Source: Aquimarina sp. BL5
Lineage (GTDB): Bacteria; Bacteroidota; Bacteroidia; Flavobacteriales; Flavobacteriaceae
Length of the DNA stretch: 64,000 nucleotides
Reading direction: 5' to 3'
Assembly (NCBI RefSeq): GCF_003443675.1
Contig: NZ_CP031963.1
Span: 620,001 to 684,000, forward strand
The notes below the pieces were generated by a model, which saw only the letters and a list, made by a program, of their open reading frames with translations, was not told the origin of the DNA and made no database searches. This document shows positions 3,681-29,925 of this stretch, in pieces. A program made the translations under genes and the position numbers. Every line of letters begins with the position of its first letter. The first letter of the stretch is position 1.

Positions 3681-4982
3681 TTAGAGATTCATTTCATTAA
3701 CCATTACTCTGCGTTTTCCTGATGCAAGTAATGGAATTTCATCAACATATTCAATCGAAATAGAAGCATCTTCTCCTAAGTAAGTTTTAAACTCATTAAT
3801 AAATTCTTGTTCTCTTAGAAATTCTTGCTCGGAATTTAATTTGAAATGATACGTTCCTGAGGCTTTTTGAATTAATTGACATTGTTTTAATTCAGGATAA
3901 TTATTTACCAACAAAACTAAATTTACAGTTATAATTTCATCTTTCGTATTATAAATCACATCAATTTTTCTTCCACTCACTTCTCTAAAAAAGGGTTTTC
4001 CATCAATTACATCTTTAATTCCTATATCACCAGTATCATACCTTAACATTGGAACATAGTAATTAAACAAATCGGTTATTACAATTCTACCCGGTTTTCC
4101 ATTTTCGACTCTTTTATCAGATTTTAAATCTAAAATCTCTACAACATAACTAGCCTCATTAATTTCGAATTTTTTAACATTTCCTAAGGGTTGCTGAGCA
4201 AGAATTCCATTTTCTACATTAGAGTATCTAGAAACTACTTCTGTTCCAAAATATTTATAAATGCTTTGTTTTGTATAGTCATCTAGTCTTTCAGACATAG
4301 CAATTACAGATTTTAAATTACTAGATATTGGAGAAGAGTTCTTACTATCTAGATGCTTACATATTTCTTTATAAGCAGAGGCATATCCCAACCAGCTATT
4401 AGACGAACTACTTTTAGATAAAGTATCGATAACTCTATCAATAAGCGACTTATCTTTTAAATCAAATACATCTATAGGCACTATATTCTGAAGAAATCTA
4501 TTTAAAACTCCTTTTTTTTCAAATGCATTCCAAAGCCTAAAATAGGTAAGTTTGAATCCTATATTGAAACCAGCTTTTTCTGAAAAATAAATAGTATCCG
4601 CAATATTTCTTAATCTCTTATTCTTGTTTTGGTATATCGTAAAAGGTGTACCTGTAGAACCACTAGTACTTAAGGTAAATTTAGGAAGACCAACAAATTT
4701 TTTAGATTGAAAACTCTCAAAGTTATCTTTAATAATATTCTTATTTATAACTGGAAAATCTTCAATCGAGGCATAACCTTTATATTTCTTATAGTAATCC
4801 GTTGATTGGACAGCGTGATCTAAAATATTTTGAATATTTTTTTCTTTACAATTAATTGCTTCTTGAGAAGTAGGATTTTCAATTAAAAATTTGATCTCAT
4901 TATAATGCTTTTTTTTATCCCCTCCTTTTAGAGCATCTACAATCCAAAATGCTTTATTTCTCAATAACTCGAATATTTTCAT
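3681..4982 (-). CDS. PaaK/CapK-like adenylate-forming enzyme (copy 1)
   Basis: A 433-residue relative of phenylacetate-CoA ligase, of the type often named CapK in polysaccharide loci. Visible ANL blocks are LSTSGSTGTPF (about 104-114), RYSNVENGI, LRYDTGDIG and SGRKIDVI, and the C-terminus ends LLASGKRRVMVNEM, with the position of the catalytic lysine. The enzyme presumably activates a carboxylate with ATP; what it is joined to is unknown. It is clearly paralogous to the product of 6143-7459 (shared VPINVFDL/VPIDVFDL, GYASA/S, MSERLD and C-terminal blocks) and is separated from it only by an ATP-grasp gene. The gap to that gene is 10 bases. Confidence 0.85.
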   Translation of the reverse strand: MKIFELLRNKAFWIVDALKGGDKKKHYNEIKFLIENPTSQEAINCKEKNIQNILDHAVQSTDYYKKYKGYASIEDFPVINKNIIKDNFESFQSKKFVGLPKFTLSTSGSTGTPFTIYQNKNKRLRNIADTIYFSEKAGFNIGFKLTYFRLWNAFEKKGVLNRFLQNIVPIDVFDLKDKSLIDRVIDTLSKSSSSNSWLGYASAYKEICKHLDSKNSSPISSNLKSVIAMSERLDDYTKQSIYKYFGTEVVSRYSNVENGILAQQPLGNVKKFEINEASYVVEILDLKSDKRVENGKPGRIVITDLFNYYVPMLRYDTGDIGIKDVIDGKPFFREVSGRKIDVIYNTKDEIITVNLVLLVNNYPELKQCQLIQKASGTYHFKLNSEQEFLREQEFINEFKTYLGEDASISIEYVDEIPLLASGKRRVMVNEMNL

Positions 4983-6142: not shown

Positions 6143-7459
6143 CTATAATTTAACTTCATTAACAATTGCCCTTTGTTTCCCGGAAGCTAATAGAGGAATT
6201 TCATCAACATATTCCAATTTAATAATAGCATCATGACCAAAATATCCCCGAAATTCTTCAATAAACTCTTTTTCCTCGCCAAAAGTATGATTTTCAATCT
6301 TTAGTTTAAAGAGATATTCATTCTTTGTTTTCTGAATAATTTGTCTTTGCCTAATTTCTTTATATTTATTGATCACTAGCAGTATACTTGTAGATAATAT
6401 TTCTCCAGATGTACTGCGTATACTATCCATTTTTCTACCTTCTACTCTACTAAAAACATATCTAGTTTTTCCGTTTTCTTTAATTTCATCCATAATTCCT
6501 AAATCCCCTGTATCATATCGAATCATAGGTGTATGGTAGTTGAATAAATCAGTAATAACAATCCTTCCTAATTCTCCATATCCCACTCTATTATTACTTG
6601 TGAAATCTAAAATTTCTACATAATAACTCGCCCAATTTATTTCGAAATACTCTTCACCAATTGGTTGTTGGGCTATCATTCCGTTTTCTGCATTAGAATA
6701 TCTTGAAATCATATCTACACCAAAATACTTTTTCATAGATAATTTTGTGGATGGATCTAAACGTTCCGACATGCCTATTACAGATCTAAGATTACAATTG
6801 ATAGGCTCAGCCTTTATTGAGTCCAGATAATTACAAATTTTATCAAATGATGAAGCGTATCCTAACATTGCCTTATTAGACGTGTCATTCTTTAAAATCT
6901 CAATCAAATTTTTAATTGTGTTATCTGATAAATCAAATACATTTATTGGAATAATATTTTGGAGAAAAGATGCTAGCTTATTCTTCTTTTTGAACATATC
7001 CCAAAATCTTAAATAAAAGAGTTTATGTCCCAATTGATATCCAGCTAACTCAGAAAAATAAATAATATCTGCGGTATTTCTTTTTCTCTTATTGTAATCC
7101 TGAAGCATTGTAAAAGAAGTGCCGGTAGATCCACTAGTGGATACACTAAAATGTTTTTTATGTTTATAGGTCCCTGACAAAAATTCTTGGTAAGAATTTT
7201 TAACTATCTCTTTATTTATGATAGGAAAATTATGAAAGTCGGAGGATTCGTAACTTTTATAAAAACTTGTTGTGCCAGATGCATGTACAAGTAATTGCCG
7301 AAGGTAATGCTCTTGTTTAGATATTGATTTCTTATTATGAGGACGTTCTATAATGTCCTCAATATCTTTATAATGCTTTCTAATATCACGTCCTGTGCAA
7401 AAATCAATTAACCAAAAAGAAATATTTCTTAATTTTTCTCCAAGTCTCATATCTATCAT
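6143..7459 (-). CDS. PaaK/CapK-like adenylate-forming enzyme (copy 2)
   Basis: A 438-residue adenylate-forming enzyme with FSVSTSGSTGTSFTML (P-loop), RYSNAENGMIAQQP, IRYDTGDLG and VEGRKMDSIR, ending LLASGKQRAIVNEVKL. It is a diverged paralogue of copy 1 at 3681-4982, with the same length and the same order of motifs. The likely chemistry is ATP-dependent activation of a carboxylate, cytoplasmic, linked to glycan decoration. A 100-base gap precedes the ATP-grasp gene downstream and a 69-base gap follows the GT4 gene upstream. The start codon at 7459 follows an alternative in-frame methionine pair (MIDM), so the true start could be three residues later. Confidence 0.85.
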   Translation of the reverse strand: MIDMRLGEKLRNISFWLIDFCTGRDIRKHYKDIEDIIERPHNKKSISKQEHYLRQLLVHASGTTSFYKSYESSDFHNFPIINKEIVKNSYQEFLSGTYKHKKHFSVSTSGSTGTSFTMLQDYNKRKRNTADIIYFSELAGYQLGHKLFYLRFWDMFKKKNKLASFLQNIIPINVFDLSDNTIKNLIEILKNDTSNKAMLGYASSFDKICNYLDSIKAEPINCNLRSVIGMSERLDPSTKLSMKKYFGVDMISRYSNAENGMIAQQPIGEEYFEINWASYYVEILDFTSNNRVGYGELGRIVITDLFNYHTPMIRYDTGDLGIMDEIKENGKTRYVFSRVEGRKMDSIRSTSGEILSTSILLVINKYKEIRQRQIIQKTKNEYLFKLKIENHTFGEEKEFIEEFRGYFGHDAIIKLEYVDEIPLLASGKQRAIVNEVKL

Positions 7460-26942: not shown

Positions 26943-27137
26943 GAATTTCTTGTATTATCCCTTGATTTTTAATCCCCTACGCTATGCATATTGCACAGAC
27001 TGCGCGAAATTAAGATTAAACAACAGAACACACAACTTATATCAAAGGGGATTTTAACCCATAATAAAATTCACTATGTTCCGTCATCCCATAAAAAAAT
27101 CAATTCATCGATTTAATTATCATAATCAACTGTAAAT

Positions 27138-27172
27138 CAAATATATAAATTCTTACTCATTTTTATTAACAA
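27138..27172 (-). promoter_or_regulatory. Candidate promoter of the Wzx/Wzy polysaccharide operon
   Basis: CAAATATA (27138-27145) reads TATATTTG on the minus strand, a full TAnnTTTG -7 match. A CAA at 27170-27172 gives the -33 TTG with a 24-base spacer, one base longer than the usual range. No other good match lies between the remnant and the epimerase. Confidence 0.5.
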
Positions 27173-27200
27173 AAACGTTTTCGAAGTATGAAAACAGGTA

Positions 27201-27346
27201 TTAATACGTGTAAAAATTTAGTGACTCAATTTCGAACCAGTTTTCGACTAAACATCGAGATTCTAGTATTTGTTCATAGTAAATTGAAATTTCTAAATTA
27301 GCAACTCTTGTTGAAGATGTAAAAGAGTATTTAATATAAGAGGCGA
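27201..27346 (-). pseudogene. Degenerate duplicate of the 3' end of the 2-oxoacid dehydrogenase E1 gene
   Basis: Reading the minus strand gives RVANLEISIYYEQ, then ILESRC, LVENWFEIESLNFYTY and a stop. The intact E1 gene ends RVASLETPIPFEP, SLESQY, LAKNRFEKELQELLEF and stop. The two align without gaps to the same stop position, and over 78 bases (27231-27308 against 27949-28026) I count about 57 identical by hand. Weaker similarity continues to about 27346, where the stop codon of the small membrane-protein gene begins. There is no start and nothing upstream, so this is a fragment rather than a gene. Confidence 0.78.
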
Positions 27347-27868
27347 CTAATTAATTGTATTTTCTCTGATAGTTTTTTCAAAGTCCAGAGCTAATTCTCC
27401 TGTCCATTCTTTAAGGAACCAATACCTCCAAACTGACAGTAAAGTCAAAACTATAAAAATCCAAGGACTTAAAGCACCACCTATGAATCCGTGAATAATT
27501 TCAATAAAAAATACAAAAGATAAACTTCGGAAAAGTTTATAATGTGCTGTATTTCTTTCTAATTCCTGTAAAGCGGAGACATTATTCATCCTTATAAAGG
27601 AAAACGCCTTATAAAACCTATCACGCCCCAATGATTTTTCATGGAATTGAAAATATAACAGGTCCAAAGGATAACTGATATTAAGTAAAAAGTGCCCTGT
27701 TATATAGGACATCACCAAAAACAAGATAGTCTCTGAGGTCTCAATATTACTAAAATTAAAAACAGCGCGTATCTCATTGATCCACAAATAAACAAACACT
27801 ATTCCTGGTAAAAGAATTGCAAACAAATCAAAGATTCCAATAAAAAAATCGCCGGGTTTAAAGTTCAT
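27347..27868 (-). CDS. Small integral membrane protein of unknown function
   Basis: A 173-residue protein I do not recognise by name. The N-terminus FKPGDFFIGIFDLFAILLPGIVFVY includes a DLFAxLLPG pattern leading into the first membrane span (about 12-32). Further hydrophobic segments lie at about 46-66 and 115-150 (two close spans), and the C-terminus is charged and probably cytoplasmic. It sits between the intact E1 gene (50 bases upstream) and the E1 remnant immediately downstream, so it appears to have been inserted at the E1 3' end. Function unknown. Confidence 0.7.
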   Translation of the reverse strand: MNFKPGDFFIGIFDLFAILLPGIVFVYLWINEIRAVFNFSNIETSETILFLVMSYITGHFLLNISYPLDLLYFQFHEKSLGRDRFYKAFSFIRMNNVSALQELERNTAHYKLFRSLSFVFFIEIIHGFIGGALSPWIFIVLTLLSVWRYWFLKEWTGELALDFEKTIRENTIN

Positions 27869-27918
27869 AATAGACTATTTTAAAATTATCTTAAACCTAT
27901 TATTATCCTAATACAGGT

Positions 27919-29925
27919 CTAAAACTCTAATAATTCCTGTAATTCTTTTTCGAACCTATTTTTGGCCAAATATTGAGATTCTAAGCTGGGTTCAAAAGGA
28001 ATTGGTGTTTCTAAACTCGCAACTCTTTTTACGGGAGCATCTAAATATTGAAAACAATTTTCCATAATCAATGCAGAAATATCAGATGCTATTCCTCCAA
28101 ACATTGAATCTTCTTGCAAAATAATCGCTTTACCTGTTTTCTTAACCGATATTAAAATTGTGTCAACATCTAATGGTTGTAAGGTTCTTAAATCTATAAC
28201 ATCTGCTTCTATTTCAGAATGTTTTTCTAAGATTTCTAAAGCCCAATGTATACCGGTACCATAACTTATAACAGTTATTTGATTTCCTTCTTTTAACAAA
28301 GAAGCTTTTCCGAATGGAATAGTATAATAACCTTCAGGCACTTCTTCTCTAATACTACGATACAATGCTTTATGTTCGAAAAACAATACTGGATTAGGGT
28401 CTTCAATAGATGTCAATAATAATCCTTTAGCATCTGCCGGAAAAGCTGGATATACAACCTTTAAACCGGGAGTTTTTGTAAACCACGCTTCATTAGTCTG
28501 ACTATGAAAAGGTCCTGCGCCAACACCTCCTCCACAAGGCATTCTTACCACTATATCTGCAGATTGGTTCCAACGATAATGGGATTTAGCCAATAAATTT
28601 ACAATAGGATTAAATCCTGAAGAAACAAAATCAGCAAACTGCATCTCTACAATGGCTTTTGTACTATTAACAGATAATCCATATGCCGTAGAAATTACAG
28701 CAGACTCACAAATAGGTGTATTACGAACTCTATCTTTTCCAAATGCTGAAACAAAACCATCAGTAATTTTAAAAACACCTCCATAATCAGCAATATCCTG
28801 TCCCATAATAATAAGGTCACTATATCTACGCATTCCTTCCTTTAAGCTTTCAGAAATTGCATCAATAAGTCGAATTTCTTTTGTAGACCTTCCTGGTAGA
28901 ATTTCTTTAAATTCAAATGTTTGATAAACATCTTTCAGTTCTTTTTCTAAAACAACTTGAATTTTTTCCTCCTCATTAGCTCTTTGCCAATGTGTTTCGA
29001 TTTCAGTTTTAATCGCGGATTTTCCTTGAAGTTCATCTTCCTTAGAAAGAATTCCATTATCAATAAGATATTCTCTATAATTTTCTATTGGATCTTTTGC
29101 AGCCCAATACTCCATTAAATCTGCCGGAACATACTTGGTACCACTCGCTTCCTCATGACCACGCATTCTAAAAGTTTTAAACTCTAATAAAACAGGTCGT
29201 GGGTTTTGTCTTATACTTTCTGCTAATTCATTTACTTTGTTATAAACTTCTAATACATTATTACCATCTATAACATGCGATTCCATGCCATAGCCTAAAC
29301 CTCGATCCGCAAGATGCTTACAATTGTATTGCTCTCTTGTCGGTGTAGACAATCCATATCCATTATTCTCAATACAAAAAAGTACGGGCAAACTCCATAC
29401 GGATGCAATATTTAAAGCTTCATGAAAGTCTCCTTCACTAGTACCTCCTTCACCAGTAAAAACAGCAGTAGTTTTATTATTTTTTTTTAAAAGATTACCT
29501 AAAGCTACGCCACAAGCAACTCCTAATTGTGGTCCCAAATGCGAAATCATACCGACAATATTATATTCTTGTGTTCCAAAATGAAACGAACGATCTCGTC
29601 CATTAGTAAAACCACTAGCTTTACCTTGCCATTGACTAAAGAGTCTATATAACGGAACATCACGAGTAGTAAACACGCCTAAATTACGATGCATCGGCAA
29701 AACATATTCATCCTTATGTAATGCGGCCGTTACTCCAACCGAAATAGCCTCTTGGCCAATACCGCTAAACCATTTAGAAATTTTACCTTGACGAAGTAAT
29801 ATGAGCATTTTTTCTTCAATCAACCTCGGTTTAAGCATTTTGAAATATAGAGAAACAAGTAGTTCTTTACTATACTCTTTCTTATCAAAATCTAATAACA
29901 ATTTCTCTTCTGCCATACAATTCAA
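27919..29925 (-). CDS. Fused 2-oxoacid dehydrogenase E1 alpha/beta subunits
   Basis: A 668-residue fusion. Residues 1 to about 330 form the E1 alpha part with thiamine diphosphate binding at GDFHEALNIASVWSLPVLFC and ENNGYGLSTPT, and the phosphorylation-loop-like RMRGHEEASG. Residues about 350-668 form E1 beta (AISESLKEGMRRYSDLIIMGQDI, RNTPICESAVISTAYGLS, VEMQFADF). It decarboxylates a 2-oxoacid and acetylates or acylates lipoyl E2; the branched-chain 2-oxoisovalerate complex is most likely in Bacteroidota. No E2 or E3 gene is in the window. A partial second copy of its 3' end lies downstream. Confidence 0.9.
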   Translation of the reverse strand: MNCMAEEKLLLDFDKKEYSKELLVSLYFKMLKPRLIEEKMLILLRQGKISKWFSGIGQEAISVGVTAALHKDEYVLPMHRNLGVFTTRDVPLYRLFSQWQGKASGFTNGRDRSFHFGTQEYNIVGMISHLGPQLGVACGVALGNLLKKNNKTTAVFTGEGGTSEGDFHEALNIASVWSLPVLFCIENNGYGLSTPTREQYNCKHLADRGLGYGMESHVIDGNNVLEVYNKVNELAESIRQNPRPVLLEFKTFRMRGHEEASGTKYVPADLMEYWAAKDPIENYREYLIDNGILSKEDELQGKSAIKTEIETHWQRANEEEKIQVVLEKELKDVYQTFEFKEILPGRSTKEIRLIDAISESLKEGMRRYSDLIIMGQDIADYGGVFKITDGFVSAFGKDRVRNTPICESAVISTAYGLSVNSTKAIVEMQFADFVSSGFNPIVNLLAKSHYRWNQSADIVVRMPCGGGVGAGPFHSQTNEAWFTKTPGLKVVYPAFPADAKGLLLTSIEDPNPVLFFEHKALYRSIREEVPEGYYTIPFGKASLLKEGNQITVISYGTGIHWALEILEKHSEIEADVIDLRTLQPLDVDTILISVKKTGKAIILQEDSMFGGIASDISALIMENCFQYLDAPVKRVASLETPIPFEPSLESQYLAKNRFEKELQELLEF

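Follow-up and report, generated by a model that had tools for sequence, protein, structure and literature searches.

A displaced 3′ end of the fused E1 dehydrogenase gene next to a small membrane-protein gene in Aquimarina sp. BL5, and comparable gene ends in other flavobacteria

The window analyzed here is the whole 64,000-nucleotide stretch at bases 620001-684000 of the 6.01-Mb single-contig genome of Aquimarina sp. BL5; its nearest named loci belong to Aquimarina (among the best 80 of 588 loci). An intact gene for a fused E1 dehydrogenase, a small membrane-protein gene, a piece of E1 coding sequence, and the first gene of a glycan cluster follow one another on the minus strand:

27919..29925, minus strand: intact E1 gene, fused E1 dehydrogenase of 668 aa (Pfam E1_dh, Transket_pyr, and Transketolase_C)
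27869..27918, minus strand: new sequence 3′ of the E1 stop, up to the cargo gene, common to the three carriers of that gene
27347..27868, minus strand: 173-aa membrane-protein gene, weakly Csx27-like by a PADLOC profile in the three carriers
27201..27333 (upper edge approximate), minus strand: decayed E1 3′ end, the displaced resident one, identified by alignment with the current tail and with relatives
26959..27200, minus strand: ancestral intergenic sequence that once lay 3′ of the old E1 stop, aligning with G013, G032, G025, and L049
25944..26942, minus strand: NAD-epimerase gene, first gene of the glycan cluster, a conserved E1 neighbor outside the insert

The E1 fragment had been recognized in a first-pass annotation by a hand alignment in which 57 of 78 bases matched. 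Our computed alignment confirms a decayed E1 3′ end at 27201 to about 27333 on the minus strand: positions 27230-27312 match 27948-28030 at 61 of 83 bases without a gap (blastn E 3e-11, 51.8 bits, 401 x 351 nt). The E1 tail is the best ungapped plus-strand place for the fragment in the window, the best minus-strand place reaching 44/83. When the fragment was shuffled 300 times with its dinucleotides preserved, no score above 49/83 arose anywhere in the 64 kb on either strand, which excludes chance-level identity. The stop codon of the fragment, TAA at 27201-27203, is in register with the E1 stop codon, TAG at 27919-27921, as had been claimed. The fragment was also said to comprise the last 45 or so codons of E1 and to reach the stop codon of the 173-aa gene. 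The first part of this description stands, with 43 codons plus the stop open in the E1 register back to 27332 and no internal stop; the second does not, as the upper edge falls at ~27331-27335 once the relatives G028, G017, and G013 are aligned, ~12 bp short of the stop codon at 27347. Identity between fragment and current E1 fades across the last ~9 codons, because the current E1 tail was replaced there: E1 now ends in QELLEF, and against the E1 of G013 the last 27 alignment columns are 0.67 identical, in contrast to 0.89 for the preceding 90. A search of the fragment against its own genome (E <= 1, 40 of 60 candidates scored) did not place the E1 tail among the matches listed, which we put down to a loose first look, the direct comparison giving the 51.8 bits stated above. 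The plasmid collection held no match to 27200-28100.

Comparison with relatives assigns an age order to the two E1 ends. The 173-aa gene occurs in 3 of the 56 genomes searched, our own included: G000, G028, and G017, each of them one of the 33 that represent the genus. The order E1, 173-aa gene, E1 remnant, epimerase is found in G028 and G017 as well. In G013, whose E1 is 90% identical, the 173-aa gene is absent, and the epimerase lies at +255 from the E1 stop versus +977 in the window, a net gain of ~720 bp that is common to G028 and G017. The E1 tail and intergenic sequence of G013 (-111..+240) align in one unbroken piece with the displaced tail of the window and the sequence that follows it (355 columns, 82.5%, E 6e-102), and those of G032, G025, and L049 do likewise. 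The remnant of G017, missed by self-comparison and found only through its sister species, also aligns unbroken with the empty-site relatives; G028 was left out of that comparison. Over the 70 nt past the displaced stop, identity to G013 is 0.90, and identity to the sequence that now follows the window's E1 stop is 0.49; the corresponding values are 0.89 versus 0.43 for G028 and 0.90 versus 0.43 for G017.

Since the displaced tail and its flank form an unbroken ortholog of the empty site, the displaced copy is the resident one, and the current tail arrived with the 173-aa gene. The ancestral state is empty, since G025, G032, G008, G009, and L049 all lack the insert. The carriers kept E1 intact, with a new tail, of which the last ~9 codons are incoming, and with a new downstream sequence (27869..27918) that is unlike the ancestral post-stop sequence and for which folding of the window copy predicts a short hairpin. 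The alignments thus show an addition, at the E1 3′ end, of DNA that carried an E1 3′ end followed by the 173-aa gene; the old tail was shifted by ~718 bp and decayed. The first-pass annotation had wavered between an incoming copy that restored the E1 3′ end, displacing the old end by about 720 bases, and a tandem duplication that decayed. The distances of 977 versus 255 bp and the unbroken ortholog bear out the former; the new post-stop sequence, the 173-aa gene, and the ancestral flank after the displaced stop disfavor the latter. The remnant itself is not conserved by selection: no single frame reads through it in G028 or G017, and its differences from the intact tail are spread evenly over codon positions (third positions 7/21 in the window and 8/25 in G028).

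The scar had further been taken to mark, and to date, the edge of a polysaccharide island. We rejected this reading because the adjacency of E1 and epimerase exists without the insert. Of the 34 deduplicated Aquimarina-type loci, 32 have the epimerase downstream of E1, 25 of them at 152-365 bp with no insert; the distance is 974-977 bp in the three carriers and 585, 610, 1063, and 1242 bp in four loci, and the other two have no epimerase in the DNA covered, which in one of them is only 1.5 kb. As glycan genes stood beside E1 before the insert, the scar records the arrival of the 173-aa gene only. Another gain in the same interval is suggested by L137 and L055, in which a 202-aa gene (hydroxylase-like by eye) lies between E1 and the epimerase. 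Compared with the tails of other species, the loci with long gaps (L137, L055, L032, and L104, the last two with repeats) showed no displaced E1 coding tail, the match of L032 to another species' E1 tail beginning only at -2. Elsewhere in the glycan region, the window holds two paralogous genes of ~434 and ~439 aa (3681-4982 and 6143-7459, minus strand) that share 71% DNA identity near their 3′ ends.

The cargo of the window is a single gene. Its 173-aa product matches the PADLOC Csx27 profile weakly (E 3e-5, residues 12-67 of 173), as do the sister copies (E 4.4e-5 and 3.7e-5), and it has no Pfam family at cut-off and no PHROG. Three of four distant Flavobacterium relatives weakly match Csx27, tm_4, or PDC-M48A, one matches nothing, and none of the distant relatives lies beside E1 in the DNA compared. 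Pairwise rates in the three carriers (dN 0.073-0.109, dS 0.60-0.94, three pairs) show purifying selection on the gene. Like Csx27 of type VI-B CRISPR-Cas, the product is a membrane protein, and the profile match, though weak, is to that family; unlike it, the window gene appears solitary, with no cas13b noticed by eye among the ORFs of >=100 aa in 18000-40000. A defense role for the protein is a guess. No donor of the window's gene was found in the genomes and loci searched. A scattered family of solitary membrane proteins of ~170-215 aa that start with MxFKPxDFFxGL was noticed in the window (27347-27868), L176, L177, L179, and L180, most members being weakly Csx27-like.

We looked for the same layout elsewhere by comparing E1 tails with their own downstream DNA in 151 distinct loci (of 168; 701,551 bases). 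Displaced tails were detected in the window, in G028, twice in F. enshiense, and more weakly in Bizionia arctica (E 4e-5), and a reversed-query control gave two matches, of 16 and 21 nt. A profile of the E1 C-terminus matched 383 of 397 family genomes, most with 1-3 matches listed; it supplies coordinates, not a scar count. Within Flavobacterium, the F. enshiense E1 tail matched 182 of 299 genomes, at most two places being scored in each, and 29 had two. The 24 of these 29 for which coordinates were listed were followed up, together with 16 high-listed genomes with one or no second match. Displaced tails came to light in 7 of the first group but not in the 16, one of which has a 26-nt match that was not counted, so that 7 of 182 is a lower bound. 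In the remaining 17 of the 24, the second match was not a displaced tail in the DNA covered, which extends only 274 nt downstream in G942. The Flavobacterium and Bizionia cases are:

G987: tails 98% identical; cargo, an acyltransferase with an SGNH domain
G1058: tails 83% identical; cargo, a DUF885 gene; the displaced copy also keeps an N-terminal piece of E1
G955: tails 90% identical; cargo, an M54-type protease
G1057: tails 89% identical; cargo, DUF2442 and DUF4160 genes
F. enshiense: two displaced copies; cargo, a 484-aa gene without a Pfam match, and Beta-lactamase-family and DUF6150 genes
G959: 87% identity over 39 nt only; cargo, an aminotransferase and further genes
G1053: tails 91.5% identical; cargo, LysR and short-chain dehydrogenase genes
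Bizionia arctica (L066), between E1 and a convergent dipeptidase: direct repeats of ~153 bp; cargo, a ParE-type toxin and its small upstream partner

The order intact E1, cargo, displaced E1 tail thus recurs with other cargo in other flavobacteria. For several cases polarity can be read as in the window: G833 and G857 align unbroken with the displaced tail of G987 and the next gene, and L299 aligns unbroken both with the second displaced tail of F. enshiense (-83..+409, 73.6%) and with that of G959. The case of G1057 is less direct, in that the sequence beyond its displaced tail matches post-E1 sequence in L306 and L115. Among the loci compared, none was informative for G1058, G1053, the first F. 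enshiense copy, or the displaced side of G955. A donor-like order is seen in L300 and L310, where the protease directly follows E1 and no displaced tail is present. In Bizionia arctica, the repeat consists of the E1 tail, a terminator, and the dipeptidase tail, and both convergent genes have displaced ends.

Several matches were set aside. L308 (26 nt only) and a 26-nt minus-strand match in L119/L297 were left out of the scar count; L114, inside a 315-aa ORF, and L096, of 18 nt, were likewise not counted. Further self-matches of the window, at genes of 439 aa (6143-7459), 371 aa, and 197 aa, are paralogs inside neighboring ORFs, as are the matches in L130, L136, and L138. Many flavobacteria (L198, L214, L117, and L085 among them) have tandem repeats with units of ~100-180 bp at 1-4 kb beyond E1; these lie away from the E1 end.

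Whether E1 is favored over other genes was addressed by testing 924 gene ends, of which 89 were E1, in 140 loci. The 835 non-E1 ends gave two real displaced cases, both of the dipeptidase facing E1, the rest lying in neighboring ORFs or being very short. Displaced copies outside ORFs were found for 0 of 268 gene ends in a 400-kb sample of our own genome and for 1 of 263 (carB) in 400 kb of G1057. Of the 283 ends tested in 40 Flavobacterium loci, ~39 belong to E1, and every displaced end outside an ORF was an E1 end. With three E1 lineages set against three cases in other genes, Fisher's test gives p 0.004 for 89 E1 ends and 0.015 for 151 loci. As E1 was the starting point, the enrichment is only suggestive. 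Two observations concern the other genes: in L339 (G1057, minus strand), a copy of the carB 3′ end (149 nt, 92%) lies 4.1-4.3 kb downstream, beyond three genes; in the E1-dipeptidase interval of L084, the dipeptidase 3′ end is displaced (141 nt, 84%) beyond a 255-aa gene, and a 173-aa heat-shock-like gene (named by eye) adjoins E1.

The position of the cut and the divergence of the tails provide clues to mechanism. Relative to the E1 stop, displaced tails start at -105, -240, -150, -167, -83 (twice), -33, and -70 in Flavobacterium, at about -130 in the window clade, and at -44 in Bizionia arctica. Illegitimate joining would account for such scatter, but the two F. enshiense copies coincide, both starting at -83 and including the terminator. 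In eight young tail pairs (seven E1 and one carB; G959, with 33-39 nt, Bizionia arctica, and L084 were left out of this test), 81 of 121 differences fall at third codon positions, whereas identical copies of which one decays would be expected, by a rough estimate, to show a share of ~0.47 (p 8e-6). Of the 121 differences, G1058 supplies 42; in one F. enshiense pair, third positions account for only 6 of 15. The excess indicates that most such tails were diverged working alleles when they met; the pair of G987 has only 3 differences, too few to show allele divergence. The G955 tails are 0.90 identical to each other and <=0.83 to any sampled species, so the donor may have been a near relative or an unsampled one. 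No integrase was found in the 14 cargo proteins scanned (the window's and 13 others, the window gene by Pfam and PHROGs); further cargo genes of G959, L084, and L339 were checked by eye only.

We consider that the scar probably arose by homology-anchored gene import at E1. A fragment from a related bacterium, perhaps taken up by natural transformation, would have undergone RecA recombination within the conserved part of E1 at one end, and its other end would have been joined illegitimately inside the resident E1 tail, that is, by homology-facilitated illegitimate recombination (HFIR); or the fragment may have circularized first and entered through a single crossover in E1. Two properties would make E1 a landing handle: its conservation is high enough for recombination between species, and the gene comes out of such a join complete. 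The Bizionia arctica repeat fits circle integration or duplication better than plain HFIR. As to uptake, natural competence has been reported for Riemerella, there placed in the Flavobacteriaceae; F. johnsoniae was reported as not competent under the conditions used, which counts against import by transformation.

Gene 3′ ends are common integrase targets, and this counts for a different origin, site-specific integration. Small elements with an att site copied from the E1 tail would be inserted at the 3′ end of E1 by a recombinase from elsewhere, one attachment repeat restoring E1 and the other being the displaced tail. The shared start and terminator of the F. enshiense copies agree with such elements, as does the 153-bp direct repeat around the toxin-antitoxin pair of Bizionia arctica; the lack of an integrase among the 14 cargo proteins scanned speaks against them, repeat lengths and starts vary widely among cases, and carB and a dipeptidase carry the same kind of scar, so that we regard this origin as unlikely. 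Tandem duplication of the E1 3′ end, the 173-aa gene arriving between the copies later and one copy decaying, would yield the direct orientation of the two repeats, and the 98% pair of G987 could be a fresh duplication. It is nonetheless quite improbable for the window, where the current tail and post-stop sequence are not ancestral and the displaced ones are; the third-position excess also opposes it, gene and remnant occur together in all three carriers, and the loci compared showed no cargo-free repeat.

A further scenario concerns timing: the insert may have entered the ancestor of all four species and later been lost in G013 by recombination across the repeat, restoring the old end. The E1 tree (89/90) and the tree of the upstream genes (100/99) place G013 inside the carriers, but the epimerase tree (90/89) places it outside, and the ancestral state is empty anyway in view of the five insert-free relatives named above. 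The four species form a radiation whose gene trees conflict, which makes secondary loss in G013 possible; as an account of the whole history we hold the scenario to be very improbable, and loss in G013 alone would leave homology-anchored import at E1 unchanged as the main reading.

On a wider scale, we propose tentatively, and with rather more doubt than confidence, that Flavobacteriaceae gain genes by a recombinase-free route in which a few highly conserved core genes act as homology handles, the fused E1 above all, carB, and the dipeptidase facing E1. Unrelated cargo (toxin-antitoxin pairs, proteases, acyltransferases, and Csx27-like membrane proteins) would then have been added repeatedly, each event leaving an oriented, roughly datable scar in the form of a displaced gene end. 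Displaced 3′ ends are useful as oriented scars, as they show the old side, the incoming gene, and a rough age. If core genes are common landing handles, much small-scale bacterial gene gain could be read event by event in the absence of any gene of a mobile element, and the laboratory phenomenon of HFIR would gain a measurable natural footprint. Comparing a gene tail with the DNA downstream of it is a simple scan that can be applied to any genome.

Three kinds of known system invite comparison. Genomic islands with att sites in gene 3′ ends leave an intact gene with an incoming end and a displaced end on the opposite side. The E1 scar likewise has an incoming end on one side and a displaced end on the other, but its cargo is one or a few genes, with no integrase found and no fixed repeat length. 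The minimal mobile elements of Neisseria are varied cargo in one interval beside conserved genes, swapped via homology on both sides; E1 scars also have varied cargo beside conserved genes, whereas at E1 the cargo is an addition that leaves a displaced gene end behind.

The third kind is HFIR itself, for which a listing-level look at the open-access literature returned no report of repeated natural use at one gene or of displaced E1 3′ ends, their absence being unproven. According to PMC3240628, HFIR has been reported in three competent species (S. pneumoniae, A. baylyi, and P. stutzeri), and its laboratory products usually show a similar-sized deletion and 3-10 bp of microhomology at the join. 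The E1 scar resembles HFIR in its one-end homology, ~1 kb added, and a putative novel join at the other end. It differs in that the end of the resident gene persists past the cargo, with a net gain of ~720 bp in place of the deletion of resident DNA, and in that the scars are old natural events, not selected products. Circularized fragments that integrate by a single crossover are also described there (PMC3240628). They would give a complete gene, cargo, and a 5′-truncated second copy in direct orientation, which fits Bizionia arctica well. The mechanism class is thus known from the laboratory, and the interesting part would be the repeated natural use of one anchor gene, if the recombination step occurred as proposed.
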